A stretch of DNA of 64,000 bases from Olsenella sp. An285 (GTDB lineage Bacteria > Actinomycetota > Coriobacteriia > Coriobacteriales > Atopobiaceae), in assembly GCF_002159625.1 (NCBI RefSeq), contig NZ_NFIZ01000002.1, positions 1 to 64,000 on the forward strand. Reading direction: 5' to 3'. Below the pieces are notes generated by a model, which did no database searches, was not told the DNA's origin, and saw only the letters and a list, made by a program, of their open reading frames with translations. Below are positions 2,674-53,380 of this stretch, piece by piece. Within the stretch, counting starts at the first letter, position 1, and every line of letters starts with the position of its first letter. The translations under genes were made by a program, and so were the position numbers.

Positions 2674-4692
2674 CTACAGCACGTCCTTCTCCATCGCGCG
2701 ATGCATCACCTGGGCCACCTCGGCGCGGGAGATGTTGTTGAGCGGGGCCAGGAGGCGGGTTCCGTCCGTCTGCTCCATGCCGGAGATGATGCCCTCGGAA
2801 AGGGCCCACTTTGCGGCGTCGATGGCCCAGGGGCTCGTGAGGGAGCTGTCGGGGAGCCCGTCGAAGGCGGAGCCGTCCACGCCCTCGGCTGTGGCGCCGG
2901 AGATTCGGTAGATGACCGTCATGAGGTCCTGGCGCGTGAGGGGGTCACCCACGCCAAACTCGTTGGAGCCGTCCTCGTACCCGGTGAAGACACCGTTGGC
3001 CACGCACCAGTCGACAGCCTGGGTGTAGTAGTCCTGCGGCACGTCCACGAGGCCGCACGAGGGCGCAGTCTCGCCGTTGCCCAGGTGACGGTAGAGGATG
3101 AGGGCGACGTCCTGGCGCTGGATCTGGTCGCCCACGCCAAAAGCTCCGGAGCCGTTATCGTAGCCGCTCATGATCTTGTTGGCGACGGCGTGGGTGACCG
3201 CGTCGTAGAACCAGCTGCCCGAGGTGACGTCCACGAAGCTCACGGGATTCTCGGCGTGCCAGGCAAGGTGCTCGGCCGCGTCTCCAGCAGAGAGGGCGCC
3301 GTGGCTGCCGCTCGTTTGGGTGCGGTCGTTATCCGTGTCGTTCACGGGGGTGGCCGTGGCGTAGAGCGCCTCGAGGACGTCGTCGACGGTGGCGTCCGGG
3401 TTGGCGGAGATCAGGACTGCCGCGGCGCCGGAGACCATGGGGGCGGAGAGGGAGGTGCCGGAGAGCGCGCCGTAGTTTCCGTCCGCCTCGGCGCTGTAGC
3501 GGGTGTAGGTCGACCAGACGGAGGCGCCGGGCGCGCTGATGTCCTTGTACTGGTTGTAGTCCGACCAGGGGATATTGGTGCCGTCCTGCTCCAGGGCGGT
3601 GACGCTCACGCACTCGTCGTAGTCGCCGGGGTAGACGGGGTCGGTGTAGGGCTTCGAGCGGGAGTCACCGTTGCCGCCGGAGCACACGGAGAGGATCCCA
3701 TGGCTGTTGCGGGCCTCGCGGATGACTGCGCGCAGGGCTCCGTCGGAGTCGAAGCTCTGCCCGTAGGCGCCGAGGCTGAGGTTGAAGACGCGCACGTTCT
3801 GGAGCTCGCCGTCCTCGATGAGGCCGAGGACGTAGTCGTAGGCGCGGACGAGTGAGGCGGAGTCCGCCTTGCCAGCGAAGTCACCGGAGTCGTAGATCAC
3901 CTTGATGGGCAGCACCTGGGCGGCGTTGCGCGTGGAGCCGGCGACGCCGATCCCGTTGTTCGCCACGGCCGCGATGACGCCCGCGACGGCGGTGCCGTGA
4001 CCATAGGCGTCCGTGGAGGCGTTCTGGGAGAGCGGGTGCTCGTTGGCGGAGTCGTAGGCGTGCTCCGCCACGAGGTTGTCCGCGAGGTCCTCATGGTCGA
4101 GCTGGGCGCCGGAGTCCAGCGTGACCACGGTGACGGGGTTGCTCTGCGCGCCCGAGGGGAGCGAATCCCACGCCTCAGCGAGGCCGCTGGCGTAGAGCCA
4201 GTACTGGTTGGGGCTCTCATCCGGGTCAGAGACCTGGGCAAACGGGTCGTTGACGGAGATGCTGGCGAGGGAGGCGATGCCGTCGCTCGGGGCGGCGAGA
4301 GGCGCTGCGGCGGGTGCGCCTGCGGTTTCCTCCACGGCGTCGATGAGGTGGTAGACGTAGTTGAGTTGGGCGCTCTCCACGCCCGGCACGGCCCTGGCCG
4401 CCGCGAGGGCCTGCTCGTCCGCCTGGCCGGAGGCGGGCTGGGCCTCCACGGTCACGGTGCCGTCCTCGGAGGAGACGATGCCGGTGACCTCCACGCCAGC
4501 CGCGTCGAGCGCCGAGTCTGCCTGTGCGAGCAGGGAGGCGCCGTCCGGGGCGGGCGCCTGCAGCGTCACGAGGATGCCGTTGGTTTGGGGGCCGTCCGCG
4601 AGGGCGACGGCAGGGGAGAGCGCGATTGTGCCGACGGTGAGCGCCGCGGAGAGGGCGAACGACAGCGGGAGCGCGTGGAGGGTCTTCTTCAT
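2674..4692 (-). CDS. SLH-anchored subtilisin-like serine protease
   Basis: Secreted endopeptidase of the S8 family, 672 aa from ATG 4692 (AAAGGAC upstream). Residues 1-32 are a signal peptide and about 38-115 look like an I9-type propeptide. The catalytic triad is visible: Asp193 in TLDSGAQLDHEDL, His232 in GHGTAVAGV and Ser414 in GTSLSAPMVSGAA; Asn341 in SGGNGDS is the oxyanion-hole residue. Three SLH repeats follow from about residue 470 (FVDVTSGSWFYDAV, VPQDYYTQAVDWC, SPWAIDAAKWALS), so the enzyme should stay attached to the wall. It may process surface proteins such as the SLH neighbour downstream; that role is inferred. Two in-frame upstream ATGs (4980 and beyond) are rejected because they would hide the signal peptide. 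Confidence 0.93.
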   Translation of the reverse strand: MKKTLHALPLSFALSAALTVGTIALSPAVALADGPQTNGILVTLQAPAPDGASLLAQADSALDAAGVEVTGIVSSEDGTVTVEAQPASGQADEQALAAARAVPGVESAQLNYVYHLIDAVEETAGAPAAAPLAAPSDGIASLASISVNDPFAQVSDPDESPNQYWLYASGLAEAWDSLPSGAQSNPVTVVTLDSGAQLDHEDLADNLVAEHAYDSANEHPLSQNASTDAYGHGTAVAGVIAAVANNGIGVAGSTRNAAQVLPIKVIYDSGDFAGKADSASLVRAYDYVLGLIEDGELQNVRVFNLSLGAYGQSFDSDGALRAVIREARNSHGILSVCSGGNGDSRSKPYTDPVYPGDYDECVSVTALEQDGTNIPWSDYNQYKDISAPGASVWSTYTRYSAEADGNYGALSGTSLSAPMVSGAAAVLISANPDATVDDVLEALYATATPVNDTDNDRTQTSGSHGALSAGDAAEHLAWHAENPVSFVDVTSGSWFYDAVTHAVANKIMSGYDNGSGAFGVGDQIQRQDVALILYRHLGNGETAPSCGLVDVPQDYYTQAVDWCVANGVFTGYEDGSNEFGVGDPLTRQDLMTVIYRISGATAEGVDGSAFDGLPDSSLTSPWAIDAAKWALSEGIISGMEQTDGTRLLAPLNNISRAEVAQVMHRAMEKDVL

Positions 4693-5040
4693 GGCGGGTC
4701 CTTTGGGCGAGAGGTTCTTCTCGGCGATTGCTCGGGTGTTGGGCGCGTGGCGCGTGGTGCGCTGCGGGTGCGGTGCGTTGCGCTTGCGCGACGGTTTGAT
4801 TGTAGGCCAGTTGCCTCGGGCGGCGAGTCCGCGCGGCCCCTTGCGTTGCGAGCGCGTTGCCGCCGCATGGCCCAGCGTTGCCGGCGGGCTTCCGACGTTA
4901 CGGTCCGGCCGCGGGCTCGTAAACAGCGCGCCCGGCTGCGCCTTCAGGCAGCTTGAGGGTGGCACCATCTGCCGCGTCACATCTGCCCTGCGTGCCGGTC
5001 CGCCCTGCGTCCCGGCCGCGCGCGACGTTGGGAGGCCGTC
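4693..5040. promoter_or_regulatory. Divergent intergenic region, subtilase / amtB
   Basis: The gap of 348 bases separates divergent genes, so it must hold both promoters. The amtB ribosome-binding site GGGAGG lies about 7 bases before its ATG. A GTTCTTCTCGG motif sits at 4714. No clear -35/-10 pair or repeat array was recognised. Confidence 0.4.
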
Positions 5041-6318
5041 ATGTATGACACCGGTTCAACCGCCTTCATGCTCGTCTGCACCATGCTCGTACTGTTCATG
5101 ACGCCCGGGCTGGCGTTCTTCTATGGCGGCCTCGCCCGCCGGAAGAACGTGGTCAACACGATGCTCATGTGCTTTGCCGTGATCGGTGTCGTGGGCCTGC
5201 TGTGGGTGATCGCGGGGTGGTCCTTCGCCTACGGCGGGGACGGCTCGCTCCCCTGGTTTGGCGGGCTCGACCAGCTGGGACTCGTTGGCCTGGTCCCGGG
5301 CATGCTCTCCGAGGCGGACGCCGTTCCTGCGGACGCGGTCTACCCCAGCCTGGTTGACGTGTGCTTCCAGATGGCGTTCGCCATGATCACGGCGGCCATC
5401 GTCACCGGGTCCGTTGCGGGGCGCATGCGCTTTGGTGCCGTGCTCGCGTTCATCGGTGTGTGGTCGCTCGTGGTGTATGCCCCGCTTGCGCACATGGTGT
5501 GGGGCGGCGAGGGATCGCTCATCGGCGACGTCATCGGCGCGCTGGACTTTGCCGGTGGCGACGTGGTGCACATCAGTTCCGGCGTCACGGGCCTCATCCT
5601 GAGCCTTGTCCTGGGCGGGCGCGCGGGCTTTGGCCTCAAGAGCTACCGGCCGCACAACGTGCCCTTTGTTGCGCTGGGGGCGGGGCTGCTCTGGCTCGGG
5701 TGGTTTGGCTTCAACGGTGGCTCCGAGTTTGCGGCGGACGAGGTCGCGGCGCTGGCGATGCTCAACACCGTGATTTCCAGCGCGGCTGGCCTGGCGTCCT
5801 GGCTCGTGGTGGAGCGCGTGGCAAGCGGCACGCCCTCGCTCGTGGGCGCCTGCACGGGCCTGGTGGCGGGCCTCGTTGTGGTGACGCCGGCGGCCGGCTT
5901 TGTGGAGCCGTGGGCCGCGGTGGTCATGGGGCTCGTGGTCTCCCCGGTGTGCTACCTGGCCATCTCCAAGCTCAAGGCTCGCTTTGGCTATGACGACGCG
6001 CTCGACGCGTTTGGCTGCCACGGCGTGGGCGGTCTTCTGGGCGGCGTGCTCACCGGCCTCTTCTGCGTGCCCGAGCTCTCCTGGACCGGCAAGGGCGGCC
6101 TGCTCTACACCGGTGATCCGTCGCTGCTGGTGAGCCAGGTGCTCGGCATCCTGGTGACGCTTGCGATCGTAGTGGTGCTTGACCTGGTGATCGTTGCTGC
6201 GGTGCGCGCGGCGTTTGGCGGAAGCCTGCGGGTGAGCGCGCACGACGAGGCGCTCGGCCTCGACGTGACGGCCCACGGCGAGAGCGCGTACCCGGCGTTC
6301 ACCGGACTGGACGCGTAG
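5041..6318 (+). CDS. amtB: Ammonium transporter AmtB
   Basis: Inner-membrane ammonium channel/transporter of the Amt/MEP/Rh family, 425 aa (typical length 400-430). It starts at an ATG with GGGAGG upstream. The sequence is a run of hydrophobic helices. Family landmarks are present: FMTPGLAFFYGGLARRKN near the N-terminus, and the two pore histidines, His177 in GDVVHISSG and His327 in DAFGCHGVGGLLGG. The next gene, 55 bases away on the same strand, encodes a PII protein; amtB-glnK pairing is the classic arrangement in which PII binds and blocks the channel when nitrogen is plentiful. Confidence 0.96.
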   Translation: MYDTGSTAFMLVCTMLVLFMTPGLAFFYGGLARRKNVVNTMLMCFAVIGVVGLLWVIAGWSFAYGGDGSLPWFGGLDQLGLVGLVPGMLSEADAVPADAVYPSLVDVCFQMAFAMITAAIVTGSVAGRMRFGAVLAFIGVWSLVVYAPLAHMVWGGEGSLIGDVIGALDFAGGDVVHISSGVTGLILSLVLGGRAGFGLKSYRPHNVPFVALGAGLLWLGWFGFNGGSEFAADEVAALAMLNTVISSAAGLASWLVVERVASGTPSLVGACTGLVAGLVVVTPAAGFVEPWAAVVMGLVVSPVCYLAISKLKARFGYDDALDAFGCHGVGGLLGGVLTGLFCVPELSWTGKGGLLYTGDPSLLVSQVLGILVTLAIVVVLDLVIVAAVRAAFGGSLRVSAHDEALGLDVTAHGESAYPAFTGLDA

Positions 6319-6373
6319 CTGCGGTTCTTCTCGTGCTCGACACCGATCATTCCCTACTATCAAGGAGTCTCAC

Positions 6374-6712
6374 ATGAAGAAGGTAACGGCCATCATCCGA
6401 CCGGAGAAGCTCGAGGAGCTCAAGGATGCGCTCAACGAGAAGGGTGTCCACGGCATGACCGTCTACGAGGTCATGGGCTGCGGCAGCCAGCACGGTTGGA
6501 CCGAGTACTACCGCGGCAAACCGGTGATGCTCAACATGATTCCCAAGGTCAAGGTTGAGCTGGTGGTGAACAACGCGCAGGTGGACGCGTTGATTGACCT
6601 GGTGTGCGAGGTTGCGCGCACCGGAGAGGTGGGCGACGGAAAGATATTCGTCTATCCCGTGGAGGAATGCGTGCGCATCCGCACCGGAGAGCGCGGCGTC
6701 AAGGCGGTGTGA
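6374..6712 (+). CDS. glnK: PII nitrogen-regulatory protein (GlnK type)
   Basis: 112-aa trimeric PII signal protein that senses ATP/ADP and 2-oxoglutarate. The start follows AAGGAG. The PII core is clear: MKKVTAIIRPEKLEELKDAL, IPKVKVELVV, and the signature TGEVGDGKIFVYPV followed by RIRTGE. Gln39, which helps bind Mg-ATP/2-oxoglutarate, is kept. The T-loop is unusual: where enteric PII has Tyr51 (the uridylylation site) this protein has Val51, in RGKPVMLNMIPK. It is therefore not expected to be modified at that tyrosine. Its linkage to amtB suggests its main job is gating the transporter. Confidence 0.95.
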   Translation: MKKVTAIIRPEKLEELKDALNEKGVHGMTVYEVMGCGSQHGWTEYYRGKPVMLNMIPKVKVELVVNNAQVDALIDLVCEVARTGEVGDGKIFVYPVEECVRIRTGERGVKAV

Positions 6713-6731
6713 GGGGGCGCTTGTCGCTTTG

Positions 6732-7083
6732 CGTTGCGGTCTGTTGGGTCGGGGCGTGGTGGCGGGTTTGGGTGTCGCGAGAACTCCGGCCGGGGCACGG
6801 TTTCGCGCTGCGGCGTCGCGAAAATCGGGGCCGGGGCGCGCCGGGAGGGGCGCGATGCCGGGCGGAGGGTCCTTCTCGCCGCGCGGGACGTGCCCCGGCC
6901 GCGGATTCCGCGACGCCTTGGCGAGGAGTCGTGCCCCGGTCCCGATTCCCGCAACGCCCGGCCTGCCGCTCCGTGCCCCGGCTGGAGTTCTCGCGACGCC
7001 CCGGCCCGTCACCGTGCCCCAGTCCCGAATCCCGCGACGCCCCCGCCCGGAACCGTGCCCCGGCCCGGCAAACCTCAACGCGT
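6732..7083. repeat. 41-bp convergent repeat array A
   Basis: Eight tandem units with a period of 41 (once 42) bases. Three units read CGTTGCG...GGGGCACG on the plus strand (6732, 6773, 6814). After a 34-base centre (6855-6888), five units appear in the opposite orientation, CGTGCCCC...CGCAACGC (6889, 6930, 6972, 7013, 7054). About 28 bases per unit are conserved and 13 vary. Because 41 is not a multiple of 3, repeated reading frames shift from unit to unit, which argues against protein coding. The array fills the gap between the glnK stop and the stop of the minus-strand nuclease gene. A transcript through it would fold into one long imperfect hairpin. Confidence 0.9.
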
Positions 7084-7110
7084 ATTACAGTCCTCAAGTT
7101 ATTTGACGCG

Positions 7111-8226
7111 CTACTCGAACCCGTACGCCTCTACCGGCACCTCGTCCCAGCCATCGTCTCCCTGGTCCGGATCCGGATCCCGTTCGCCTTCATCTTTGCT
7201 CGTGAGACAGCTCCAGTTGACGCCGTCGATTCCCTCGAGCTCGTGCCACAGCTTCTCGCGTCTGCAGCGACGCTCGTTGGCGACCGCACGCGTCACGCGG
7301 ACCTTGCGGATTCCCAGGTCGCGACGGATGGCTTCCGCGAGGCCGTCCATGTAGTCAAGATCTGCGTACTGGCGCCTGGTGACGACGTATTCGTTGAAGC
7401 CTTTGGCGGTGAGCTCGTTGTGGCGCTCGACGTCGGCTGCGTGCTGCTCCGCCCCCTCATGGTCTCGTCCGTCGTACTCCAGAGCCACTCCGCGCAGTGT
7501 CACGCCGCTTGCCCCCGAGTCTCCCGGAGCGCGCAGCAAGATGTCCGGTTTTCTTACGCCGGTTCGCATGGAATCGTGTATGCGCTGGACCTCGACAGGA
7601 TCGTTCATCGACAGCACCTCGAAGCCATAGCCGCCGCGCGCCTTGCTGAGTCCCATTCGGAGCGAGAGTTTGGTCTCGCGCGGCGACGCCGATCTGACGC
7701 ATGCCATCTTGAGGGCACGCCTTGTCTTTGCGGTTCCTGCTACCGGGCCAAGCTGCTCGAGTTGACCTTTGATGAGTTCAGGCGTGGTGAGGGGCTGGTC
7801 ACGCGAGAACATGCCCTTCTCGAGGCCAGGTGCGATGGCGTATGTGCCAAGCATCTCCGAGAGCAGACATACGATTTCGAGTTCCGTGAGCATCGCCGCC
7901 AGCTGAACGACAAGATGCTCTGGTGAGACGCAGCGGACGCCGGGTGCCAATTCTACGGCGGAGCCCGAGGGGAAGGAGGAGATTGCTCGATGCGTCTTCA
8001 CGTGACGCGGGCGCGACCTCGGCGCGTCGTGATCGAGAAGAATCTCGGGCATGTCGATCTCTCGCACACTATCCGGGAGACTGGACATGGCCTGGGTGAG
8101 CTCTTCTTTGGTCGGAGGTCGGTCGGGCAGGTTTGCGTCGCAGCGCTGTCCCTTTGCGAGACGCTTTCGAAGCGACGGGCTGCGAAGCGCCTCAAGTGCG
8201 GTGAAGTGTGTGAGCACGATATCCAT
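7111..8226 (-). CDS. DUF559/Vsr-like PD-(D/E)XK nuclease-domain protein
   Basis: 371 aa from ATG 8226; a longer frame upstream runs into repeat DNA and is rejected. The chosen start aligns with the paralog at 44893-45828 (MDIVLTHFTALEALRSPSLR here, MVTLTDITAMEVWSQSGLLK there). Residues 1-170 form a regulator-like N-terminal part of unknown fold. From about 181 a nuclease-like domain begins: SPRETK (Glu184), RKPDILL (Asp228), GVALEYDGRDH (Glu250, Asp252). This spacing fits the DUF559/Vsr branch of PD-(D/E)XK enzymes. The gene lies between two near-identical 41-bp arrays. No strong ribosome-binding site is seen before the ATG. Activity and target are unknown. Confidence 0.72.
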   Translation of the reverse strand: MDIVLTHFTALEALRSPSLRKRLAKGQRCDANLPDRPPTKEELTQAMSSLPDSVREIDMPEILLDHDAPRSRPRHVKTHRAISSFPSGSAVELAPGVRCVSPEHLVVQLAAMLTELEIVCLLSEMLGTYAIAPGLEKGMFSRDQPLTTPELIKGQLEQLGPVAGTAKTRRALKMACVRSASPRETKLSLRMGLSKARGGYGFEVLSMNDPVEVQRIHDSMRTGVRKPDILLRAPGDSGASGVTLRGVALEYDGRDHEGAEQHAADVERHNELTAKGFNEYVVTRRQYADLDYMDGLAEAIRRDLGIRKVRVTRAVANERRCRREKLWHELEGIDGVNWSCLTSKDEGERDPDPDQGDDGWDEVPVEAYGFE

Positions 8227-8505
8227 GCTCAAAATGCTATGGCTCGCGTGGGCGTGTGCGGCTGACAGGCTGAAAAAGCTCGACACGGAGCTTGCGGGAT
8301 TCTTCACGCCTGCTTTCGCCGCAAGGTGTTTATCGAGGTGGGGGTTTCGCACGAGATTGCTCGAAATGGTGGTGCACGCTGTGTAGATGTCGTGTTTGAG
8401 CAGTTGCCTGGGACGGGTGCGTGCGGGGCTCGGTCTGTGGTGCATTTCTGTGCCGAGCTGGTTGGGGCGGGAGTGTCTGCTGGGGGTTCGGCTCTGGCAT
8501 TTGCG

Positions 8506-8865
8506 CGTTGCGGTCTGCCGGGTCGGGGCGCGGTGGCGGGCCGGGGCGTCGCGAGAACTCCGGCGGGGGCACGGTTTCGCGCTGTGGCGTCGCGAAAATC
8601 GGGGCCGGGGCGCGCCGGGAGGGGCGCGATGCCGGGCGGAGGGTCCTTCTCGCCGCGCGGGACGTGCCCTGGCCGCGGATTCTGCGACGCCCAGACCCAT
8701 CACCGTGCCCTGGCTTCGATTCCCGCAACGCCGCGGCTGGCTTACCGTGCCCCGGTCCGGAATCCCGCAACGCCGCGGCCTGCCGCCCCGTGCCCCAGTC
8801 CCGAATCCCGCAACGCCCCGGCCCGTCACCGTGCCCCAGCCCGGCAAACCGCAACGCCCCCGGCA
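8506..8865. repeat. 41-bp convergent repeat array B
   Basis: Same layout as array A: three units in one orientation (8506, 8547, 8588), a 34-base centre (8629-8662), then five inverted units (8663, 8704, 8746, 8789, 8830) with 41-43-base spacing. Bases 8586-8669 are identical to 6812-6895 of array A (84 bases, including the whole centre), while the 13-base variable parts of the later units differ. It ends about 20 bases from the stop codon of the JetD-like gene. The 279 bases between it and the start of the nuclease gene hold no recognisable gene. Confidence 0.9.
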
Positions 8866-8883
8866 ATGCCGTGAGCGCGCCCG

Positions 8884-10110
8884 CTACAGATCCTCCGCCG
8901 TGAGGATCTCCTGCGGGATGAGCAGCGCGTTCCCGAGGACCACGCGCAGGTACGCGAGCTCTCGCTCCTTGAGGTAGGGCTCCAGTAGCTCGATGCCCGT
9001 CACGCTGACGCCCGCCTGGTCCGTAGGCTCGTTCTCCAGCGGATCCGGGAAGCGCCTCATCGCGCGGCGCAGCATGCGACGATACGCCGCGGCGAAGGGC
9101 TCCACGGCAAAGCGGTCGCCCGCCATCTCGGCGAGCTTTGCCAGGATGGAGAGGCCCGCGCGGTCGAGGTCGCCCCAGTAGAGCACAGTCACGTCCTCGG
9201 CTCCCAGCGTGGCAATGAGGTCGGGCAGCTTGTGCGGGTCATCCACGAGGTACCCGTTGCCAAAGACCACGCCGTGCACGCGCTCGTCGAAGATGCGCTT
9301 GCGCCCGTCGCGGAACATCGCGTTTCTCATGTTGACCCAGGGGTCGAGGTTCTCCGAGACTACGATGCGCAGGTGGCGGTGGTACTTGGGGATGTGGTGC
9401 AGGAGCTCGAGCCTTACCTGCGGGCGCGTGCGCACCACGTCCGTGAGGCCCATGAGGTGCAGGAGCTTGCGGCCGTCGGACTCCGGCGCGAGGAACTTCT
9501 CGTCCCCGAAGACGCGATAGGAGAGCTCGCGCAGGCTGAGGGTGCCGTCGCCGAGGGCTGGCCTGCCGGCGAGCTCGGCGTCGAGCCCGCGAAGCTCGCG
9601 CTCAAAGCGGACGAACGCCTCTGGCGTGCTGAGCAGCCAGCCGTTGATCCACAGGCGCGGATCGAGGTCGATGATGCGACGGCGGATCTCCCCCAGCTCG
9701 GGGGTCTGCTTGCGCACGCAGTTGAGGTGCGCGAGGGTCCGCGTCTCGCGACGGGCAAGCGGGGAGGGCGAGCCCTTCTGGGCGTCCTTCTTGTCATGGT
9801 TCTCCGCCTGGGACTCGACGTCCTTCTCGGCCGGCCGAGCGGGGGATACGGTGAGCAGGTAGCCGCCGTCATCTGCGACGGGCTCGAGTACGCCCAGCTC
9901 GCGCAGGGAGTCCAGGGTCTCCTGCCCGGCGCCGTACTTTGCGAGGATCGCCTCCACGTCCTGGAAGGGAACCGGGTTCTTGCGCAGGCGCACGAGCCCG
10001 CTGGCGATGCCGCCCGCGATGCTGCGCTGCTTGGAGGGGAGCTCCCTGCCCAGGAGCTTTGCCAGGCTCACGACCGCGGCGTGCTCCTGCTCGGTGAGTT
10101 TCTGTGCCAT
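8884..10110 (-). CDS. Orphan JetD/DUF2220-like TOPRIM protein
   Basis: 408 aa from ATG 10110. The N-terminal ~100 residues are helical (KLTEQEHAAVVSLAKLLGRE), followed by a charged linker. The C-terminal half carries the DUF2220 pattern: VVSENLDPWVNM (acidic Glu), GVVFGNGYLV, then VLYWGDLDRAGLSIL with the DxD of a TOPRIM fold. In Wadjet defence systems JetD is the subunit that cuts DNA after the JetABC SMC complex senses topology. No jetA, jetB or jetC lies in this window, so this is a stand-alone relative. It sits between arrays B and C and on the same strand as the nuclease-like gene beyond array B. A DNA-cutting role is inferred from the fold only. Confidence 0.75.
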   Translation of the reverse strand: MAQKLTEQEHAAVVSLAKLLGRELPSKQRSIAGGIASGLVRLRKNPVPFQDVEAILAKYGAGQETLDSLRELGVLEPVADDGGYLLTVSPARPAEKDVESQAENHDKKDAQKGSPSPLARRETRTLAHLNCVRKQTPELGEIRRRIIDLDPRLWINGWLLSTPEAFVRFERELRGLDAELAGRPALGDGTLSLRELSYRVFGDEKFLAPESDGRKLLHLMGLTDVVRTRPQVRLELLHHIPKYHRHLRIVVSENLDPWVNMRNAMFRDGRKRIFDERVHGVVFGNGYLVDDPHKLPDLIATLGAEDVTVLYWGDLDRAGLSILAKLAEMAGDRFAVEPFAAAYRRMLRRAMRRFPDPLENEPTDQAGVSVTGIELLEPYLKERELAYLRVVLGNALLIPQEILTAEDL

Positions 10111-10151
10111 GTCTGCCTTTCGGGATCTGATTGCCGTGCTCAAGGATAGCG

Positions 10152-10534
10152 CGTCGCGGTGTGCGACGGGCGGCGGGGGGTGCCGCGGGCGCTGCGGAAG
10201 CGTGGGGCGCTGCGGGCGGCGGGGACGCTGCGGGTGCTGGGGCGCTGCGGTTTCAGGGGCTGGGGCACGGTTGGCGCTCGAGGCGTTGCGAGTTTGCCGG
10301 GCAGGGCACGGTTGTGCTCGGGAGCGTTGCGAGTTCTTGGGCTGGGGCACGGCGGCATTCCCTGACTACCTTGGGGCAGCGACGTTCAACTGGGGTTTTG
10401 TCCAGCTGCCGTCTCACGCCGAAGGCTCTTCTCGCCCTTGCCTCTCCGCCGTCGTGCCCCAGCTCAAAATGACGCAACGCCTTCCCGCCGAAACGTGCCC
10501 TGGCCCCGATAATCGCCACACGTCCGTCTCGGGG
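10152..10534. repeat. 41-bp convergent repeat array C (degenerate)
   Basis: Same family as arrays A and B but diverged. Clear 41-base units start at 10243, 10284 and 10325 (CGTTGCG...GGGCACGG); weaker GC-rich copies precede them from 10152. After a longer centre (about 10366-10452) two inverted units follow at 10453 and 10494 (CGTGCCCC...CGCAACGC). The array fills most of the 511-base gap between the start of the JetD-like gene and the lipoprotein gene, so it may overlap the promoters of both. The remaining bases hold no recognisable gene. Confidence 0.82.
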
Positions 10535-10621
10535 TCTAGCTCGCAGCTAATGAATCTCCTTCAGTCAGCTGCTAGGGTGCAACTACCCGGAACAGATGAC
10601 TGGAAGGATTGGGTGGTTGCA

Positions 10622-11137
10622 ATGAGAAAGACCGCGCCTATTGCCCGTTTTGCCCTCACGTTTGCGCTGACCGCTGCCGCAGTGGTGGCGCCGGTTGCCC
10701 TTGCAGGTTGCGATGGCTCTTCCTCGGGTGGGGACTCCACCCCCGCTGCCGAGGAGCAGCAGGCGGAGCAGGCCGAGGAGGCGGCGCCCCAGGAGTCCGA
10801 GTACGTTGTCTCCATCGATGGTTCCACGGTGACGACTGACTACCAGGGCGCGCCTGCCATCATCGTTGACTACACCTTTACCAACAACTCTGACGACGCC
10901 ACCTCCTTTGCGGTTGCCTGCTCACAGAAGGCATTCCAGAACGGCGTACAGCTCGAGACTGCCATCGTGTCGGAGGACCTCGGCAACGGCTACATGGCCG
11001 AGATAAAGCCCGGCGCCACCACCACTGCCCGCATGGCCTACAGCCTCACGGACCAGTCTGACGTCACGGTTGAGGTGGAGAAGCTCATCTCGCTCGACGA
11101 CACCGTCCTCGCCGAGGCCACGTTCTCTGTGGCGTAG
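10622..11137 (+). CDS. DUF5067-type lipoprotein
   Basis: 171-aa secreted lipoprotein. The signal sequence ends in a lipobox, VALAGC, making Cys30 the likely lipidated residue. A Ser/Gly/Glu/Gln-rich linker follows, then a single beta-rich domain (SEYVVSIDGSTVTTDYQGAPAIIVDYTFTN in part) resembling DUF5067, a family often fused to lipoprotein signals. An in-frame GTG at 10613 is an alternative start: an AAGGA motif at 10604-10608 is close to the GTG and 13 bases from the ATG. Function is unknown; an extracytoplasmic binding role is possible. Confidence 0.75.
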   Translation: MRKTAPIARFALTFALTAAAVVAPVALAGCDGSSSGGDSTPAAEEQQAEQAEEAAPQESEYVVSIDGSTVTTDYQGAPAIIVDYTFTNNSDDATSFAVACSQKAFQNGVQLETAIVSEDLGNGYMAEIKPGATTTARMAYSLTDQSDVTVEVEKLISLDDTVLAEATFSVA

Positions 11138-11181
11138 TGAGATGCCCGCTCTGATATGCTCGGTGCGAGGGTGGTGAGACC

Positions 11182-11601
11182 ATGGCTGAACGACTGACGG
11201 AGGAGCTGCTGGACGAGCTCCTCTCCACATCGGACCTCGAGGAGTACCTCGAGAGGAACGAGCCCGGCAGGCGCACCCTCTCCGAGTACCTCAACCAGCT
11301 TCTTGCCGAGAAGGGCCTCGAGCGCTCGCGCGTGGTGCGCATGGCTAACCTCAACGACACCTTTGGCTACCAGATCTTCCAGGGCACGCGAAACCCCAGT
11401 CGCGACAAGGTGCTGCAGATTGCCTTTGCGATGGCCCTCACTTTGCGAGAGACCAACCGCGCGCTCACGGCGGCCGGCGTGAGCGAGCTCTACTGCAAGG
11501 ACCGCCGTGACGCGATCATCATCTTCTGCCTGGATCGCGGCTGCTCGCTGCAGAAGGTCAACGAGGAGCTCTATCGCTTTGGCGAGAAGACCATCTGCTA
11601 G
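11182..11601 (+). CDS. XRE-like helix-turn-helix protein
   Basis: 139 aa. Residues about 30-95 read as a lambda-repressor-like HTH: RRTLSEYLNQLLAEKGLERS, then VVRMANLNDTFGYQIFQGTR, NPSRDKVLQIAFAMALT. The C-terminal third is helical and Cys-containing (CKDRRDAIIIFCLDRGCSL). It probably binds DNA. The next gene, about 100 bases downstream on the same strand, is a membrane Ser/Thr kinase, so the HTH protein is a plausible partner or substrate. The start has a modest AGGGTGG upstream. Confidence 0.75.
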   Translation: MAERLTEELLDELLSTSDLEEYLERNEPGRRTLSEYLNQLLAEKGLERSRVVRMANLNDTFGYQIFQGTRNPSRDKVLQIAFAMALTLRETNRALTAAGVSELYCKDRRDAIIIFCLDRGCSLQKVNEELYRFGEKTIC

Positions 11602-11702
11602 CTTGCGGAAGCGGGCGGCGGCCTTGGCCCTCCGCTCCGGACAGGACTCCTCCCGGCGGGGTCGGCGCGGTGGCGTTGGCCCCGCTCTGCTAGGATGGGC
11701 GC

Positions 11703-12965
11703 ATGAACACAGAAGACGAACTCGCCAGCTATCTTGACGCCCTCGAGCGCGACGCCTGCTATCGTGTGGACGCCGTGCTCAAGGAGGGCGCGCTCGAGAC
11801 CACCGAGCGCGTCTCCTTCGTGGGGGAGAACGGCTCGGTGCTGGGGCCGTTCGTGCGCAAGCGCATCGGCGGCGAGTCTGGGCTGGGCGGTGCGTACGAG
11901 ACCGTCTTCGCGGCGCAGCGGCGCGGCGTGCGGCTCGCGCACCTGCCACGGATGGTGGAGTGCCACCGCCGAGACGGCGACCTCGTGGTGGTGATGGAGT
12001 ACGTTCCCGGGGAGACGCTCGGGAGCTGCGTGGAGGCGTGCCGCTCGCGGGAGGAGCGCCTCGCGCTCGTGCGGCGCGCGTTCCCGGACCTCTGCGACGC
12101 CGTCTCCGAGCTCCACGAGCTTCTCGACCCGCCCGTCATCCACCGCGACCTCAAGCCCGATAACGTCATCGTGTCCCCGGGCGGCGTCACCCTCATCGAC
12201 CTGGGAATCGCTCGCGCGTATCGCGACGGAGCCGAGCAGGACACCACGCACTTTGGCACGCGCGCCTACGCCCCGCCCGAGCAGTTCGGATTTGGGCAGA
12301 CCGGCGTCACGAGTGACGTCTATGCCCTTGGTATGCTGCTCTTCTTCTGCGTGACCGGCCGGGAGCCGTCGCAGGCGGACCGCGAGTCCGGCTTTCGCGA
12401 CGCCGCGCTGCCGGAGGGGCTGCGCGTCGTGGTGCGGCGCGCGACCGAGCTCGACCCGTCGGCGCGCTACGCCTCCGTGCGGGAGCTCAAGTCCGCGTTC
12501 TTCTCGGCCCTTGATGGTGAGCCTGCCGTTCCGGAGGGCCCTGCGGAGAAGAGCGGGGAGCTTGCCCCCGCGCCGCCGGACTTTGCCGAGCCGTATGCCC
12601 CGCGGGCAGAGGGCGGCTCGTTCTGGTCTTGGCTTGCTCGGGTGCCCGGATGGGCGGGTGTCGTCTGGGACGTGGTGGTTCTGGGCGTGGCCGCGCTCTG
12701 CGTCGTGGGATGCGTCATGGGCGTGGTTCAGCCTACGCCCGAGAACGCCAAGTGGCCCGCGTGGTATCTCTGGACGTCCTACCTCGTGTTTCTTATGCCC
12801 ATGCTACTTATTGCGTGCTACCTGCTGCTGGATCGTCGTCCGGTGAGGCGGGCGATTCCCGCGCTCGCAAGCCTCTCCGTACGGCAGGAGACGCGCGTAG
12901 GGCTTCTTGCTCTGATCGCGATTTTTGTCGCGTGGGTTCTGACCTCAGCCGCGGCGGGCGTGTAG
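11703..12965 (+). CDS. Membrane-anchored Hanks-type Ser/Thr protein kinase
   Basis: 420 aa. The kinase domain covers roughly residues 45-285. The catalytic loop is VIHRDLKPDNVIV (Asp149), the metal-binding motif is DLG (Asp166, in LIDLGIARAY) rather than DFG, and the activation segment ends GTRAYAPPEQF. The glycine-rich loop is poorly conserved. After a Pro/Glu-rich linker there are three hydrophobic segments (about 315-345, 350-375, 395-415), so the kinase faces the cytoplasm and is anchored at its C-terminus. No PASTA repeats are present. A TAGGAT -10-like hexamer lies just before the start. Pairing with the HTH gene suggests a small signalling unit. Confidence 0.88.
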   Translation: MNTEDELASYLDALERDACYRVDAVLKEGALETTERVSFVGENGSVLGPFVRKRIGGESGLGGAYETVFAAQRRGVRLAHLPRMVECHRRDGDLVVVMEYVPGETLGSCVEACRSREERLALVRRAFPDLCDAVSELHELLDPPVIHRDLKPDNVIVSPGGVTLIDLGIARAYRDGAEQDTTHFGTRAYAPPEQFGFGQTGVTSDVYALGMLLFFCVTGREPSQADRESGFRDAALPEGLRVVVRRATELDPSARYASVRELKSAFFSALDGEPAVPEGPAEKSGELAPAPPDFAEPYAPRAEGGSFWSWLARVPGWAGVVWDVVVLGVAALCVVGCVMGVVQPTPENAKWPAWYLWTSYLVFLMPMLLIACYLLLDRRPVRRAIPALASLSVRQETRVGLLALIAIFVAWVLTSAAAGV

Positions 12966-12970
12966 GCCCG

Positions 12971-13022
12971 TTGACTACCAAAAGTAGGTAATTTACTGTA
13001 TATTTGCAGTTACTTCTAGTAG
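12971..13022 (+). promoter_or_regulatory. Promoter/operator of the toxin-antitoxin pair
   Basis: A locally AT-rich stretch. Two short inverted motifs, CTACCAAAAGTAG (12975-12987) and TACTTCTAGTAG (13011-13022), flank a TATATT -10-like hexamer (12999-13004). TTGACT at 12971 is a possible -35 but is 22 bases away. Paired operator sites of this kind fit autoregulation by a Phd/YefM antitoxin. Confidence 0.5.
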
Positions 13023-13037
13023 GGGAAAGGAACTCGC

Positions 13038-13325
13038 ATGCCAGCCGTTACCTCGCTGTCTGACTTCAACAGGAACCAGTCCGAGGTCATTTCGCGCCTT
13101 TCAGAGACTGAAGAGCCGCTCTACCTCACGCGAAATGGCAAGAGCGCGGTTGTCGTGATGGATGCGGAGGCGTTTGATCGCGCCATGTCCTTTAGGAACG
13201 AGGTTCACGAGAGGGAGATGAGCGTCTACAGGGGTCTTCTTCGCGGATACCAGGATGTTCAGGAAGGTAGGACCTCGGACGCAAAGAGCGCCTTCGCTCG
13301 CGTGCGAGAGCAGAAGGGCTGGTAG
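13038..13325 (+). CDS. Phd/YefM-family antitoxin
   Basis: 95 aa, starting after GGGGAAAGGA. The N-terminus is a typical Phd/YefM DNA-binding fold: VTSLSDFNRNQSEVISRLSE, then PLYLTRNGKSAVVVMDAEAFD. The C-terminal helix would bind and neutralise the toxin encoded two bases downstream. Antitoxins of this family repress their own promoter, matching the paired inverted motifs upstream. Confidence 0.9.
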   Translation: MPAVTSLSDFNRNQSEVISRLSETEEPLYLTRNGKSAVVVMDAEAFDRAMSFRNEVHEREMSVYRGLLRGYQDVQEGRTSDAKSAFARVREQKGW

Positions 13326-13327
13326 AC

Positions 13328-13630
13328 ATGGCGTATGCCGTTGAGCTTACCGAATATGCCGAGTCGTTCCTCCTAGATAACGTCACCAGCGAACGCGTGC
13401 TCGAGAGAATCGAGCGTTCCGTCGAGATGCTTGCCGAGTATCCTGAGGCGGGGCCGTCATACAACCCGGACTACGCTGCGGCAAGACCTCCGTTTCCTTG
13501 TCGGTATCTGCCGCTTTCGGACACGCCGTTCACGCTCTACTATCTGACGGACGATGAGGCTCAGTTGGTGACGGTGTTCGACATCGAGTGGACGGCTGGA
13601 GATCCCCGAGCGAGATTCACCTTCGTCTAA
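13328..13630 (+). CDS. RelE/ParE-family toxin
   Basis: 100 aa, directly after the antitoxin (2-base gap). The sequence fits the RelE/ParE plasmid-stabilisation fold: MAYAVELTEYAESFLLDNVT, a central helix pair, PCRYLPLSDTPFTLYYLTDD and a C-terminal beta strand VTVFDIEW. RelE members cut mRNA on the ribosome and ParE members poison gyrase; the sequence alone does not decide which applies. Confidence 0.85.
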   Translation: MAYAVELTEYAESFLLDNVTSERVLERIERSVEMLAEYPEAGPSYNPDYAAARPPFPCRYLPLSDTPFTLYYLTDDEAQLVTVFDIEWTAGDPRARFTFV

Positions 13631-18436: not shown

Positions 18437-18460
18437 AGACGCGCTGACAGGGGTTGTGTC

Positions 18461-18506
18461 AAAGGGGACGGGGCTGACAAACTACCCCGTCCCCTTTGTC
18501 AGCCCC
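18461..18506. terminator. Two-state palindrome between convergent genes
   Basis: AAAGGGGACGGGG (18461-18473) pairs with CCCCGTCCCCTTT (18485-18497). A second, overlapping stem can form instead: GGGGCTGACAAA (18470-18481) with TTTGTCAGCCCC (18495-18506). It lies between the convergent thioesterase and pfp genes, so it is probably a shared terminator. The GGGGAC core is shared with the palindromes at 26279 and 51016. Confidence 0.7.
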
Positions 18507-18526
18507 GCCCCCTTGTCAGGACCCTC

Positions 18527-19720: not shown

Positions 19721-19800
19721 AAGGGCTCCAATCGTTGCTCGGCTTCCACACATAAGGATATCCGCTTGTCGCCGAGCTCACCAGCGAGGAGGCTGAGCGT

Positions 19801-20028
19801 GCAAAAGTGCCCTTCGGGACGGTAGTGCGGACCGCCGGCTGCAAAACGGGCCTTCGGGCCGGTGGATTTTGGGGGAGATTTGGCGCCGCTGGGAAATAAG
19901 ATTAGATACTTGATATTTATATATGGGATAACGATGGTATGGCCTCCGACGGCTTCCGCAATTCCACCGGCCCGAAGGCCCGTTTTGCAGCCTGACGTCC
20001 GCGCCGCCGGCCCGAAGGGCACTTTTGC
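19801..20028. repeat. Nested inverted repeat with AT-rich core (MITE-like)
   Basis: Outer perfect 18-bp arms (GCAAAAGTGCCCTTCGGG 19801-19818 / 20011-20028) enclose inner perfect 29-bp arms (19838-19866 / 19963-19991). The inner arms each hold a GGGCC-TTCG-GGCC mini-hairpin with a UUCG tetraloop. The 96-base core is AT-rich (TTGATATTTATATATGGG) in contrast to its surroundings. It occupies the 376-base gap between the pfp start and the enolase stop. It could be a miniature transposable element or a double terminator with an internal promoter. No target-site duplication was recognised. Confidence 0.85.
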
Positions 20029-20096
20029 AGGAGAATGCCGCCCCGGGCCAAGCCGGGACGGCATCTCCGTGGTGCTGAGCCGTGCGCGGAGCGGTG

Positions 20097-26279: not shown

Positions 26280-26348
26280 CCCAAAAGGGGACAGGAGCAA
26301 ATTGGGACATCGGCCGATGTCCCAATTTGCTCCTGTCCCCTTTTGGGT
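26279..26348. terminator. Perfect 70-bp palindrome, GGGGACAGG family
   Basis: 35-base arms are exactly complementary with no loop (ACCCAAAAGGGGACAGGAGC... mirrored). It separates two convergent genes (ElyC-like stop at 26279, icd stop at 26355) and carries A/T-rich ends suited to termination on either strand. The AAAAGGGGACAGG phrase recurs at 51016 and, diverged, at 18461. Confidence 0.85.
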
Positions 26349-26354
26349 CACTCG

Positions 26355-33854: not shown

Positions 33855-34010
33855 GGTGCCCCTTCCCCCTGGATGTTTCCCTCGTCTGATTGTGCCACGC
33901 GAGCGGGGACAAATCCTAGCAGTTGCGTGCAAACGGTAGGAAATCCCGTCTTGCGAGGGCGGGGATCGCGAGGCGGCCGGCAGTTTGCCTGGGCCGTTGC
34001 GGTCAAGTTG

Positions 34011-34270
34011 CGTTGCGGAAAACGGGGCGGGGGCAGGCTTGGCGAGAAGTACGTTGTCATATGCGCGGCCGTGGCACGGGGGCGGGCGGTTGGCGGTCCG
34101 TGGGATTCTTCGACGTTGCGACTTCGGGGGCTGGGGCGCGACTTTTGCCACGCCGGGCGGGCCTTGCGGGTCCCATTCCGCCCGGTGTCGTGCCCTGGCC
34201 CCGAATCTGACAACGCGATTTGTTGAAGTCGTGCCCTGGCCCTGTTTTTGACAGCGCCGCGCTGCCCTCC
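34011..34270. repeat. 41-bp convergent repeat array D
   Basis: A smaller member of the same family, in the 478-base gap between the divergent ppaC and ettA starts. Units in one orientation begin at 34011, 34052 (degenerate) and 34114 (CGTTGCGACTTCGGGGGCTG and following). After a centre at about 34155-34188 two inverted units begin at 34189 and 34230 (CGTGCCCTGGCCCCGAATC and following), again 41 bases apart. The rest of the gap carries both gene promoters; TAGAAT at 34287 is a possible ettA -10. Confidence 0.85.
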
Positions 34271-37143: not shown

Positions 37144-37164
37144 CCTGCGGCCAGAGTTGTCCTA

Positions 37165-37198
37165 GTCCGCCGTTCGCTCCGCGAGCGGCGGACTTTTT
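37165..37198 (+). terminator. Intrinsic terminator of the ldh/mdh gene
   Basis: GTCCGCCGTTCGC and GCGAGCGGCGGAC form a 13-bp stem (one G-U pair) with a TCC loop, followed by TTTTT at 37194-37198. Canonical form. Confidence 0.92.
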
Positions 37199-37232
37199 CG
37201 TGCCGCGAGGTGCGCTTGGGAAAGGGGCGCGG

Positions 37233-37325
37233 AAATTAGTTCGCATTGGGAACCTGAAATAGCGTGGTATGTCAGCGTTTTCGCAGTTGGACATTTTCTT
37301 TCAGGTTCCCAATGCGAACTAATTT
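37233..37325. repeat. 27-bp perfect inverted repeat
   Basis: AAATTAGTTCGCATTGGGAA... (37233-37259) is exactly mirrored at 37299-37325, with a 39-base loop. It is AT-richer than its surroundings and follows the ldh terminator, upstream of the ABC exporter promoter. It could be a second terminator, a regulator site or a small mobile repeat. Confidence 0.8.
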
Positions 37326-37367
37326 CTGGGACCACCTGGAGCCGCTTACCAATTCGTCACACGCATC

Positions 37368-37399
37368 TTGCCGGGGGGGGGGTTCTCCTAGCGTACAAT
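37368..37399 (+). promoter_or_regulatory. Candidate ABC-exporter promoter with a G10 tract in the spacer
   Basis: TTGCCG (37368-37373) and TACAAT (37394-37399) resemble -35 and -10 boxes 20 bases apart. The spacer starts with an unbroken run of ten G (37373-37382, sharing its first G with the -35). The translation start follows at 37440. The tract is the only homopolymer of that length seen in the window. Confidence 0.5.
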
Positions 37400-37439
37400 G
37401 GCGCGCACGACTGTTACGGACCCCAGGGATGGGAGACCC

Positions 37440-44736: not shown

Positions 44737-44797
44737 ACCATACGTACCCGTCATTTCTGACGGCAGTCAGCAATCAGAAATGACGGGTACGTATGGT
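44737..44797. repeat. CCATACGTACCCGTCA palindrome (copy 2)
   Basis: Perfect 24-bp arms (ACCATACGTACCCGTCATTT and onward, 44737-44760 and 44774-44797) with a 13-base loop. It lies just upstream of the DUF559-type gene at 44893 and shares its core with copies at 16164 and 45835. Confidence 0.9.
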
Positions 44798-44863
44798 ACC
44801 CCGAGCCACAAAGCAGCGGCCATACCGCCCCCACCCTTTTGGATGAAAAACATCTTGCTTTAA

Positions 44864-44869
44864 TATACT
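44864..44869 (+). promoter_or_regulatory. Candidate -10 box of the DUF559-type gene
   Basis: TATACT sits in an AT-rich patch (CTTTAATATACTTAAAGC), itself a short palindrome TTTAA-TATAC-TTAAA. A start about 7 bases downstream would leave only some 16 bases of leader before ATG 44893, with no ribosome-binding site visible. Confidence 0.4.
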
Positions 44870-44892
44870 TAAAGCAGTACAAATATATTGCT

Positions 44893-45828
44893 ATGGTGAC
44901 ACTTACAGACATAACCGCTATGGAAGTTTGGTCGCAGAGCGGCTTGCTCAAACGGCTGGGCAACCCGTACTCGGCTGGCGGCCTCAGCTGGTCGGTGGGT
45001 TCTATGTTGGAGCTTCGACAAAGCGGACTTGAGCAGCTGGGCATCCATGCGTCGGAAAAAGCCCCCGTACACGTGCTGGTGGACTCCGAGGAGCATAGGA
45101 TCCAGTCAAAAAGCGTGGTCAATCACATATGGTCCGGACGGGTACCCGCCGGCTCACTCTACCTGCTTGCCCCTGGGGTACTCATTGCCTCACCCTCGTT
45201 TTGTTGTCTCCAAATCGCCTCGAGCTCGAGTCTTCCGCGTGTGGCGTCCGTTGTCATGGAGTGTCTCGGAGCGTACGGAAAGGCCGACACCTCTAGGGGG
45301 TTCAGAGACCGAGGGGCGTTGTTCACCCCTGAGGAGCTCGGGAACTATCTCGAGGGGGCGAGGGGCTGCATGGGAGTCAAGAAGGTACGTCGCGCGCTGA
45401 GGCTCGCCCTCTTCCCAACTAGGTCCCCCTTGGAGACCAAAGCCTCGCTCCTGCTGACGCTTCCCCGAAAGCTCGGAGGGTACGGATTGCCCCGTCCCGA
45501 GGTGAACTACGTCATTCGGCCTCGCGCCGAAGACATTCCCTTCAGCCAGTTTGCGAGATACGAGGTCGACCTGTGCTGGCCCAAGAGAAAAGCCATCGTC
45601 GAGGTCGATAGCTACGAGTACCACACGGAGCGCGACCAGCTTGACTCGGACGCCAAGAAGCGTAACTCGCTCAAGAGCATGGGATGGAAGGTCATATCCG
45701 TGACGTTTGGTCAGCTATCCGGGGATGCGCTCGAGGTCCTCGCGCGTCAGGTGGCCCGCGATCTTGGGGTGAGCCTCGAAGGTCCGACTCCGGAGCTTCG
45801 AGATTGGCTCGTGAGTGAGCTGTCCTAA
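44893..45828 (+). CDS. DUF559/Vsr-like nuclease-domain protein (paralog of 7111-8226)
   Basis: 311 aa from ATG 44893; a start at 44839 is possible but lies across the putative promoter, and the paralog supports 44893. The two proteins match along their length: PSFCCLQIAS vs PEHLVVQLAA, LGAYGKADT vs LGTYAIAPG, KVRRALRLALFPTRSPLETK vs KTRRALKMACVRSASPRETK, LGGYGL vs RGGYGF. Nuclease-like residues are Glu181 (SPLETK), Asp226 (YEVDLCWP), Glu237 and Asp239 (IVEVDSYEYH), followed by NSLKSMGWKVISVTF. It lies between two CCATACG palindromes. Base composition is less GC-rich than its neighbours, suggesting transfer. Confidence 0.75.
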   Translation: MVTLTDITAMEVWSQSGLLKRLGNPYSAGGLSWSVGSMLELRQSGLEQLGIHASEKAPVHVLVDSEEHRIQSKSVVNHIWSGRVPAGSLYLLAPGVLIASPSFCCLQIASSSSLPRVASVVMECLGAYGKADTSRGFRDRGALFTPEELGNYLEGARGCMGVKKVRRALRLALFPTRSPLETKASLLLTLPRKLGGYGLPRPEVNYVIRPRAEDIPFSQFARYEVDLCWPKRKAIVEVDSYEYHTERDQLDSDAKKRNSLKSMGWKVISVTFGQLSGDALEVLARQVARDLGVSLEGPTPELRDWLVSELS

Positions 45829-45834
45829 GGACAA

Positions 45835-45893
45835 CCATACGCACCCGTCATTTCCAAGATGAATCCGGCCTAGGATATGACGGGTGCGTATGG
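45835..45893. repeat. CCATACGCACCCGTCA palindrome (copy 3)
   Basis: Perfect 17-bp arms CCATACGCACCCGTCAT (45835-45851) and its complement (45877-45893). It begins six bases after the DUF559-type stop. Both arms differ from copy 2 by the same compensating base change (GTAC to GCAC), which keeps the stem paired. Confidence 0.9.
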
Positions 45894-51015: not shown

Positions 51016-51127
51016 GCCCGTCAAAAGGGGACAGGTGCAGAAGGCCAGATAAAACCTGCCAACAGTGGGTCTCTTTCCACTATTGGCAGGTTATCTGGCC
51101 TTCTGCACCTGTCCCCTTTTGACGGGC
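51016..51127. terminator. Long palindrome between convergent genes, GGGGACAGG family
   Basis: Arms of about 50 bases, nearly exact: GCCCGTCAAAAGGGGACAGG... from 51016 mirrored to 51127, with a two-base bulge and one mismatch near the loop (GTCTCTTT). It abuts both stops (GNAT at 51015, cysE at 51127). Confidence 0.85.
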
Positions 51128-53246: not shown

Positions 53247-53270
53247 GGGGGTTCCTTTCTCTGGGGGCGG

Positions 53271-53380
53271 GGCTTGACAGTTTGCTCAGGCTTGACAGTT
53301 TGCTCAGGTCCAGCTGTCAAGTGCCTAGACTTGACAGCTGGACCTGAGCAAACTGTCAAGCCTGAGCAAACTGTCAAGCC
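53271..53380. terminator. Perfect 51-bp inverted repeat
   Basis: 51-base arms (53271-53321, 53330-53380) are exactly complementary around TGCCTAGA. Within each arm TTGACAGTTTGCTCAGG is present twice in tandem, so the stem is built from an internally repeated motif. It lies between the stop of the CDF gene and the start of pth2, both on the minus strand. Confidence 0.85.

Follow-up and report, generated by a model that had tools for sequence, protein, structure and literature searches.

In a 64,000-nt stretch of the Olsenella sp. An285 genome (GCF_002159625.1, contig NZ_NFIZ01000002.1, positions 1 to 64,000; the window hereafter), we observed that a gene for a DUF559-like protein (7111-8226, minus strand, 371 aa) lies between two convergent arrays of a bipartite motif, and that the same motif builds further convergent arrays in intergenic DNA genome-wide. 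The best explanation, to which we assign a probability of roughly 0.6, is that the nuclease-like protein and its dispersed sites form a two-part system, in which the protein would bind the arrays and serve their upkeep or spread. The parts of this reading differ in strength. The association of the DUF559-like gene with arrays is practically beyond doubt. Specific binding of the arrays by the protein is quite probable, as suggested by motifs that differ from gene to gene and track the protein, by the phasing of sites on one face of the helix and by an AbiEi-like fold. The odds tilt only slightly towards spread or upkeep of the arrays by the enzyme.

Four arrays of one motif family, none of them assigned a strand, were located in the window. 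Array A (6730-7082), defined by scanning and spacing, consists of 27-bp sites in convergent order (+++-----) and lies past the stop of the DUF559-like gene, before glnB. Array B (8504-8858) likewise has three plus and five minus sites (+++-----), array C (10241-10522; +++--) lies in the gap between a JetD-like gene and a DUF5067 gene, and array D (34009-34258) has three plus and two minus sites. The site common to all four is CGTYGCG-N12-GGGGCACG, which recurs mostly every 41 or 42 bp, a left arm of plus copies and a right arm of minus copies converging across a centre of variable length. When gaps of 9 to 17 were allowed, the gap was exactly 12 in all 17 window copies with at most one mismatch, and five simulated windows held 0, 0, 1, 0 and 2 such copies versus 17 in the real one. 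Arrays A and B share a 187-nt stretch that is 94% identical. These results confirmed that the arrays in the window are real. An earlier sequence-only reading had described three arrays alternating with two minus-strand genes, with an array past the stop of each, and all of these were indeed present: array A ends 29 bp past the stop of the DUF559-like gene and array B 26 bp past that of the JetD-like gene. Its bipartite unit of about 41 bp was likewise present; the first box, given there as CGTTGCG, reads CGTYGCG here, and the gap, given as about 13 bases, is exactly 12. The convergence of the arms within each array and the fourth array at 34009-34258 go beyond that reading.

The link between gene and arrays was examined in relatives of the source genome (2.41 Mb in 33 contigs; G000), for which, as for the source genome itself, Thermophilibacter is used as an inferred genus label. 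We took 20 DUF559 homologues from other Thermophilibacter genomes, picked from match lists and neither randomly nor by their arrays, and asked whether the 450 bp on either side of the gene share a repeat; the controls were 135 genes encoding 230-450 aa, drawn from 20 stretches in four genomes. At a score of at least 25, 18/20 Thermophilibacter loci and 11/20 DUF559-like loci of other genera passed, versus 2/135 controls. Thresholds of 18, 20 and 25 gave 19, 19 and 18 of 20 for Thermophilibacter, 11, 11 and 11 of 20 for other genera, and 13, 4 and 2 of 135 for controls. Both control passes came from one spot, where one gene belongs to the DUF559 family (hmmsearch E 1.4e-25) and the other adjoins it. 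At this spot (L154:6200-9250, in G032), the DUF559-family gene and its neighbour are found amid three copies of an inverted element of about 110 bp. Inverted arms combined with a 40-42-bp period were present in 24/39 DUF559-adjacent gaps versus 1/14 other gaps of the same loci, and inverted arms alone in 36/39 versus 7/14. A motif finder returned a clean convergent motif for 15 of the 20 loci, mostly on both sides of the gene, and the motif differed between lineages. The proposed link between nuclease genes and arrays was upheld for the DUF559-like gene only, in a form not proposed earlier, and failed for JetD (0/10 genes). The DUF559-like gene is the proposed array partner.

Within the source genome, a site model built from sequence only gave at least 116 matches at E<=1; 150 of 2226 candidates were scored, so that 116 is probably a lower bound. 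In 23 stretches, 30 arrays were located, one of which (L057) is a single site, and 305 kb of shuffled sequence yielded no array under the same rule. All arrays except one (L055, which overlaps a called open reading frame (ORF)) are located in gaps between called genes. The remaining 29 lie between convergent (11), same-strand (10) or divergent (8) genes, and because this distribution has no promoter bias, with only 8/29 gaps divergent, we rejected the idea that the arrays are promoter elements as a class. A second model, run with stricter filters, found one weak match each in nine genomes outside the genus. We also rejected the notion that most Thermophilibacter species are without arrays, as the species examined bear arrays of other motifs. 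The sequence-only reading had suggested checking array neighbours for DUF559- or JetD-type genes. Among 98 immediate neighbours of same-motif arrays taken from five genomes, these were found only at the window and at L086, its orthologous locus in G011. Taken alone, this same-motif result would have refuted the earlier idea, because the arrays are scattered genome-wide and the gene pair stands only at these two loci. Enrichment beside arrays of the same motif was rejected as the sole test, and it is the reverse test, on the flanks of DUF559-like genes, that links the other motifs.

Dispersed motifs were likewise observed for other DUF559-like genes. In G001, the motif beside one DUF559 gene is present in 126 copies and that beside another in 80, versus 0 for reversed-pattern controls. 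The second G001 motif is also found in G010 (62 copies), which has a homologue of 86% identity, and in G040 (37 copies), where a DUF559-like gene (C36:944-2059) is flanked by it; G005 has 0 copies. A third motif, from G099 (another genus), has 104 copies, largely in 41-bp steps, versus 3 and 1 in two relatives, with 1, 0 and 1 for the reversed-pattern controls. A fourth, from G235 (another family), has 12 copies, including three inverted pairs 108-109 bp apart, versus 0 and 0 in two other genomes. Dispersal in the G001, G099 and G235 families was counted without gene calls; four non-window motifs were searched, and reversed-pattern controls gave 0 or 1 per genome for all searched motifs. The dispersed motif of G030 agrees, on visual comparison, with the motif upstream of its DUF559 gene (L141), a locus that has no downstream array and failed the flank test.

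Motif similarity follows protein identity (Mantel r=0.68, 0/20000 permutations, n=17), a figure to which shared descent contributes; L136, L137, L138, L142 and L145, which lack a clean convergent motif, were left out, and the L144 motif was turned round. Two G001 loci, L135 and L139, have a motif similarity of 0.24, versus 0.96 between L135 and the G010 homologue L140, which indicates that in G001 the motif follows the lineage of the protein rather than the genome that carries it. Ten genomes have DUF559-like genes at one shared syntenic place (L129-L132, L134, L136, L141 and L143-L145); the motifs differ between several of these genes, and the motif change seems to have happened in place there.

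The geometry of the arrays is also regular. The innermost plus-to-minus distance of 28 arrays in G000 steps by 10.45 bp (R=0.975; 0/5000 sets in which each distance was jittered by up to 10 bp), and the same stepping was seen over the 12 distinct centre distances (R=0.968; 0/5000). Array B was dropped from this set as a copy of A, as were arrays without both arms (L057 in G000). Tandem spacings of more than 45 bp, pooled over all genomes, have a period of 10.3 (R=0.91; 0/5000), and in two other array families, for which few values were available, the periods were 10.30 and 10.25 (33/3000 and 87/3000 simulations). The 10.45-bp stepping therefore places both arms on the same side of the double helix, as would be expected of proteins that sit along a single face of double-stranded DNA; neither RNA nor a free hairpin would be expected to give such steps. 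Two short modules, GTTCTTCTCGCC and CAACTGGG, are found in array centres, and the former is about 15x denser in arrays and 6.5x denser in other gaps than in coding DNA (41 loci). By eye, a stretch related to GTTCTTCTCGCC precedes a tRNA-like sequence in L097, L101 and L105.

The DUF559-like gene was assigned from its homologues, a predicted model, fold search and the flank tests. Its start at 8226 is common to homologues, and longer ORFs begin at 8352 or 8847. Three of the key residues picked out from the sequence, E184, D228 and E250, are invariant in 23/23 aligned homologues, as is H256, whereas the fourth, D252, varies. The window protein does not reach a Pfam cut-off, its best match being MTES_1575 (PF18741; E 0.09 to 0.11), a family treated in PMC3710099. 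The earlier DUF559 label is thus below the cut-off directly and rests on homology to a window paralogue that passes PF04480. At E<=0.1, the 23 homologues matched four Pfam families, none of them a Y1 transposase; 10/23 matched MTES_1575 and 1/23 matched DUF559 (PF04480). A profile search of solved structures returned only two chance-level matches (E 0.056 and 0.15), and neither JetD nor the two window DUF559-family proteins received a usable name from NCBIfam.

In the predicted model (predicted local distance difference test 82.8, predicted template modelling score 0.82), residues 1-176 align with the AbiEi antitoxin over its C-terminal part (6y8q, Z 8.0, root-mean-square deviation (rmsd) 3.5, 119 aligned), and residues 179-306 with the endonuclease-like 3hrl (Z 8.6, rmsd 2.5, 93 aligned). 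The lower matches after 3hrl include Holliday-junction resolvases and TnsA (Hjc 4tkd, Z 6.3; TnsA 1f1z, Z 6.3, rmsd 8.1, and 1t0f, Z 6.1, rmsd 3.1, 97 aligned). We take 3hrl, 4tkd and the TnsA structures to be PD-(D/E)XK nucleases. As far as the model goes, the protein thus has the PD-(D/E)XK fold together with the acidic residues and appears nuclease-like, and overall it resembles an AbiEi-like first half joined to a nuclease-like second half. A profile of the family matches 139/297 genomes and 56/107 genera of the order (E<=1e-30), and DUF559 paralogues were found in 31/31 genomes of the genus. We know of no established function for the DUF559-like family in the order.

The window holds a second DUF559-family gene (44896-45828, also called at 45004, plus strand), which is about 30% identical to the first and passes PF04480. 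An inverted pair of CCATACGYACCCGTCATTTC, with no strand assigned, lies upstream (44738-44796) and another downstream (45835-45893) of it, and a less exact further copy is found at L058:12367/12406. The region 44738-45893 represents a second, simpler gene and repeat pair in the window.

We propose that the DUF559-like protein, with its AbiEi-like half and its PD-(D/E)XK nuclease-like half, would bind successive copies of the motif along one face of the helix, with the arms meeting head-to-head at the centre. Cutting or nicking at this complex may then lead to copying, resizing and spread of the arrays by repair, and the gene would keep up a population of arrays that are themselves non-autonomous, a role comparable to the one proposed for RAYT with REPINs. 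The arrays do vary in place. In the gap between a kinase gene and the p139 gene, the array is full in L096 and shorter in L103, and at the same place in L098 a single inverted pair was seen by eye. Arrays or array-like repeats also lie in the gap before JetD, both in the window and in L093, L097, L101, L102 and L105, with motifs that differ where they could be read; the other gaps compared there gave no array-like signal. These reused places with varying motifs and unit counts imply that array places are reused and that unit numbers change.

REPIN-RAYT is the nearest known arrangement. As described in PMC3116915, an enzyme gene has its own repeat in its flanks, many inverted non-autonomous copies are intergenic, and some genomes have several RAYT enzymes, each with its own repeat class. 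The likeness lies in the layout: the repeat flanks the DUF559-like gene (18/20 Thermophilibacter loci versus 2/135 controls), the same repeat is dispersed as inverted pairs in intergenic DNA (the G000 arrays), and repeats also occur in genomes without a close enzyme gene. The enzyme is different, being AbiEi-like and PD-(D/E)XK-like here and a Y1 (HUH) tyrosine transposase there, and so are the units, which here are 27-bp bipartite sites in arrays of about 41-bp period, phased on double-stranded DNA. We set the system apart from REPIN-RAYT as new because the enzyme and the phased arrays are both outside that family, although by analogy the DUF559-array system seems to work like REPIN-RAYT.

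Four other known systems share single features with the one described here. The first half of the model resembles type IV antitoxins of the AbiEi/Rv2827c kind (6y8q, Z 8.0), but here a nuclease-like domain is fused to it, the sites are dispersed over the genome where those of the antitoxins lie in one promoter, and no toxin model matched glnB or JetD, the two neighbours of the 7111-8226 gene, so that no AbiEii was seen beside the AbiEi-like protein. Tn7 is represented by TnsA among the fold matches (1f1z, 1t0f). Each end of Tn7 carries more than one TnsB site, in inverted orientation, whereas here there is a single protein, both orientations are present in each array, and no transposon ends or cargo were recognised. 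Wadjet is represented in the window by the JetD-like gene, and differs in that PADLOC found no match to JetA, JetB or JetC in the nine window proteins scanned from 2674 to 13630. CRISPR and TIGR-Tas (the subject of PMC12045711) likewise have tandem units of about 40 bp next to a nuclease-like gene; in contrast to these, both orientations occur per array here, two-unit arms are common, the middle of the unit is non-random, and the arrays stand in tens of places. AbiEi and Rv2827c both bind inverted repeats (PMC7319586).

A bolder version of the proposal, which we hold tentatively and at somewhat less than even odds, is that these pairs are an undescribed self-spreading class, in which one protein, an AbiEi-like reader joined to a TnsA/Vsr-like nuclease, would bind rows of its bipartite site that are face-phased and head-to-head, the centre would be cut, and dispersed arrays would thereby be copied, expanded and seeded. 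With the same reserve, each protein lineage may change its motif together with its whole array set, and several independent pairs per chromosome may exist across the order. No link between DUF559 and repeats was found in the literature searched (open-licence papers). DUF559-like proteins are common in the order, and their own dispersed sites provide a testable substrate, with the motif to be read from the gene flanks. If the two-part system is real, the enzymes believed to keep intergenic repeat populations would include a second, unrelated type, studies of DNA recognition would gain protein-motif pairs that form a natural series, and there would be an example of a protein whose specificity changes jointly with that of tens of genomic sites.

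Several observations weigh against the two-part system. In the flank test, 9/20 loci of other genera failed, as did 11/20 distant paralogues (9/20 passed), and one of those nine passes (L201) rests on the common GTTCTTCTCG module; the 20 Thermophilibacter loci represent about six genomic places and are non-independent. The 17 distinct centre distances from all genomes are phased less strongly (R=0.80; 2/5000). The Z values of the fold comparison are middling, and its top row is a Toxoplasma mitoribosomal protein aligned to the same part as 3hrl (Z 8.8, rmsd 3.8, 106 aligned); Foldseek alone gave no hit at E<=0.001 for the model, and the AbiEi match is to the C-terminal part, the published AbiEi DNA-binding domain being N-terminal. 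Binding, cutting and movement are themselves predictions from sequence and model. Inspection by eye revealed neither a target-site duplication nor a terminal sequence, and an orthologous array stays put in three related species with differing units, which slow upkeep would fit equally well. Moreover, window-type arrays are present in G009 and G015, where no DUF559 gene is a close match (best E 7.9e-15 and 1.7e-16, respectively). At L092, which probably corresponds to contig C3 of G009, the contig ends 20 bp past the array unit downstream of JetD, where relatives hold the DUF559-like gene, so the absence of the gene there is possibly an assembly loss. REPINs, too, occur in genomes without a RAYT gene (PMC8049555).

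The strongest rival, which we nevertheless consider unlikely, is a host-serving one: the protein would be a domesticated regulator or chromosome organiser and the arrays its sites, with no mobility today. Same-face phasing and the array position kept in three related species would suit such a role, as would the binding of inverted repeats in promoters by AbiEi-family antitoxins (PMC7319586). It is harder to reconcile with the retention of nuclease-type residues in 23/23 homologues, with the lack of promoter bias among the 29 G000 arrays (11 convergent, 10 same-strand, 8 divergent), and with motifs that differ between genes, two families coexisting in G001.

Improbable in our view is a defence or addiction system, in which the nuclease attacks foreign DNA or its own cell and the arrays serve as self-markers, retain the enzyme or work as antidote-like decoys. 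The presence of several different motifs in one genome would be in keeping with a recognition system, and a nuclease-like domain beside an AbiEi-like one, as predicted by the model, points the same way. However, the two window DUF559-family proteins had no PADLOC match at E<=0.01, and a need for tens of dispersed intergenic arrays is unfamiliar to us from such systems.

More improbable still is a reading in which the DUF559-like gene is a passenger and another enzyme moves or uses the arrays, these being REP-like hairpins or guide-like RNA units. REPINs are also inverted pairs (PMC3116915), and one compact array from a related species (L084) indeed folds as a strong single-strand hairpin (z -8.4). 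By contrast, 150 nt of array C, comprising the plus arm and part of the centre, folded no better than shuffles (z -0.22), the centre distances step by the B-DNA repeat, and the motif tracks the DUF559-like protein. A hairpin-only reading was set aside as less likely, given the centre phasing, which favours double-stranded DNA, and the fold of this part of array C, and an RNA-family reading was rejected because the window had no Rfam match at the gathering threshold.

We give hardly any credence to the original unit, in which both genes, the DUF559-like one and the JetD-like one, act together with the arrays: its order is seen in the window and partly in L096, L098 and L103, and various repeat families lie on one side of JetD in about 10/15 named loci, but JetD lacks an adjoining DUF559 gene in 10/14 JetD-called loci, L094 and L095 have no array beside JetD, and 0/10 other JetD genes pass the flank test.

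The JetD/DUF2220-like gene itself (8884-10110, minus strand) is a syntenic neighbour that we judge to be outside the system. Its JetD label stands, with JetD_C above the Pfam cut-off, and its homologues are 66 to 74% identical, one being 61%, in records of Olsenella, Thermophilibacter provencensis, Atopobium and uncultured Atopobiaceae. The p139 gene is close to JetD or its place in 14 of the 15 named loci (L091-L105; L104 is a 3.3-kb contig), JetD is not called on its strand in L091, and glnB is called past JetD in 6/15. DUF559 adjoins JetD only in L096, L098, L099 and L103 among these loci, and in L097 the distance from JetD to glnB is 41 bp, where the window has array, DUF559 and array. Near JetD, arrays related to those of the window are found in L092, L096, L098 and L103, other repeats (by eye or score) in L093, L097, L101, L102 and L105, and an inverted repeat in L099, in a gap identical to that of L128. 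The JetD-side repeats differ in motif where read, and the downstream ones go with DUF559 (L096, L098, L099 and L103) or with a contig end (L092). The flank test covered 10 of the 15 named loci, and none of these JetD genes shared a repeat between its flanks (scores 10 to 15); the window JetD scores 38 because arrays B and C are of one family. JetD was rejected as an array partner on these flank results and on its frequent occurrence without DUF559 beside it, and we judge it to be a bystander. It is kept beside p139 in related species, with no Jet partner in the scanned neighbourhood. A nearby kinase gene (11703-12965) matches the PADLOC PD-T4-6 models (best E 3.7e-33), which may only reflect the kinase fold.

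Other repeats were observed in the window as well. A 61-bp tandem unit with internal inverted arms at 58414-58692 is perhaps another array family. Long palindromes around GGGGAC/GTCCCC at 18437-18526, 26280-26354 and 51016-51126 represent a different kind of intergenic repeat, and two of the three contain AAAAGGGGACAG. Further strong inverted repeats, unmatched to the arrays, are located in gaps at 53247-53388, 19721-20096 and 37144-37439.

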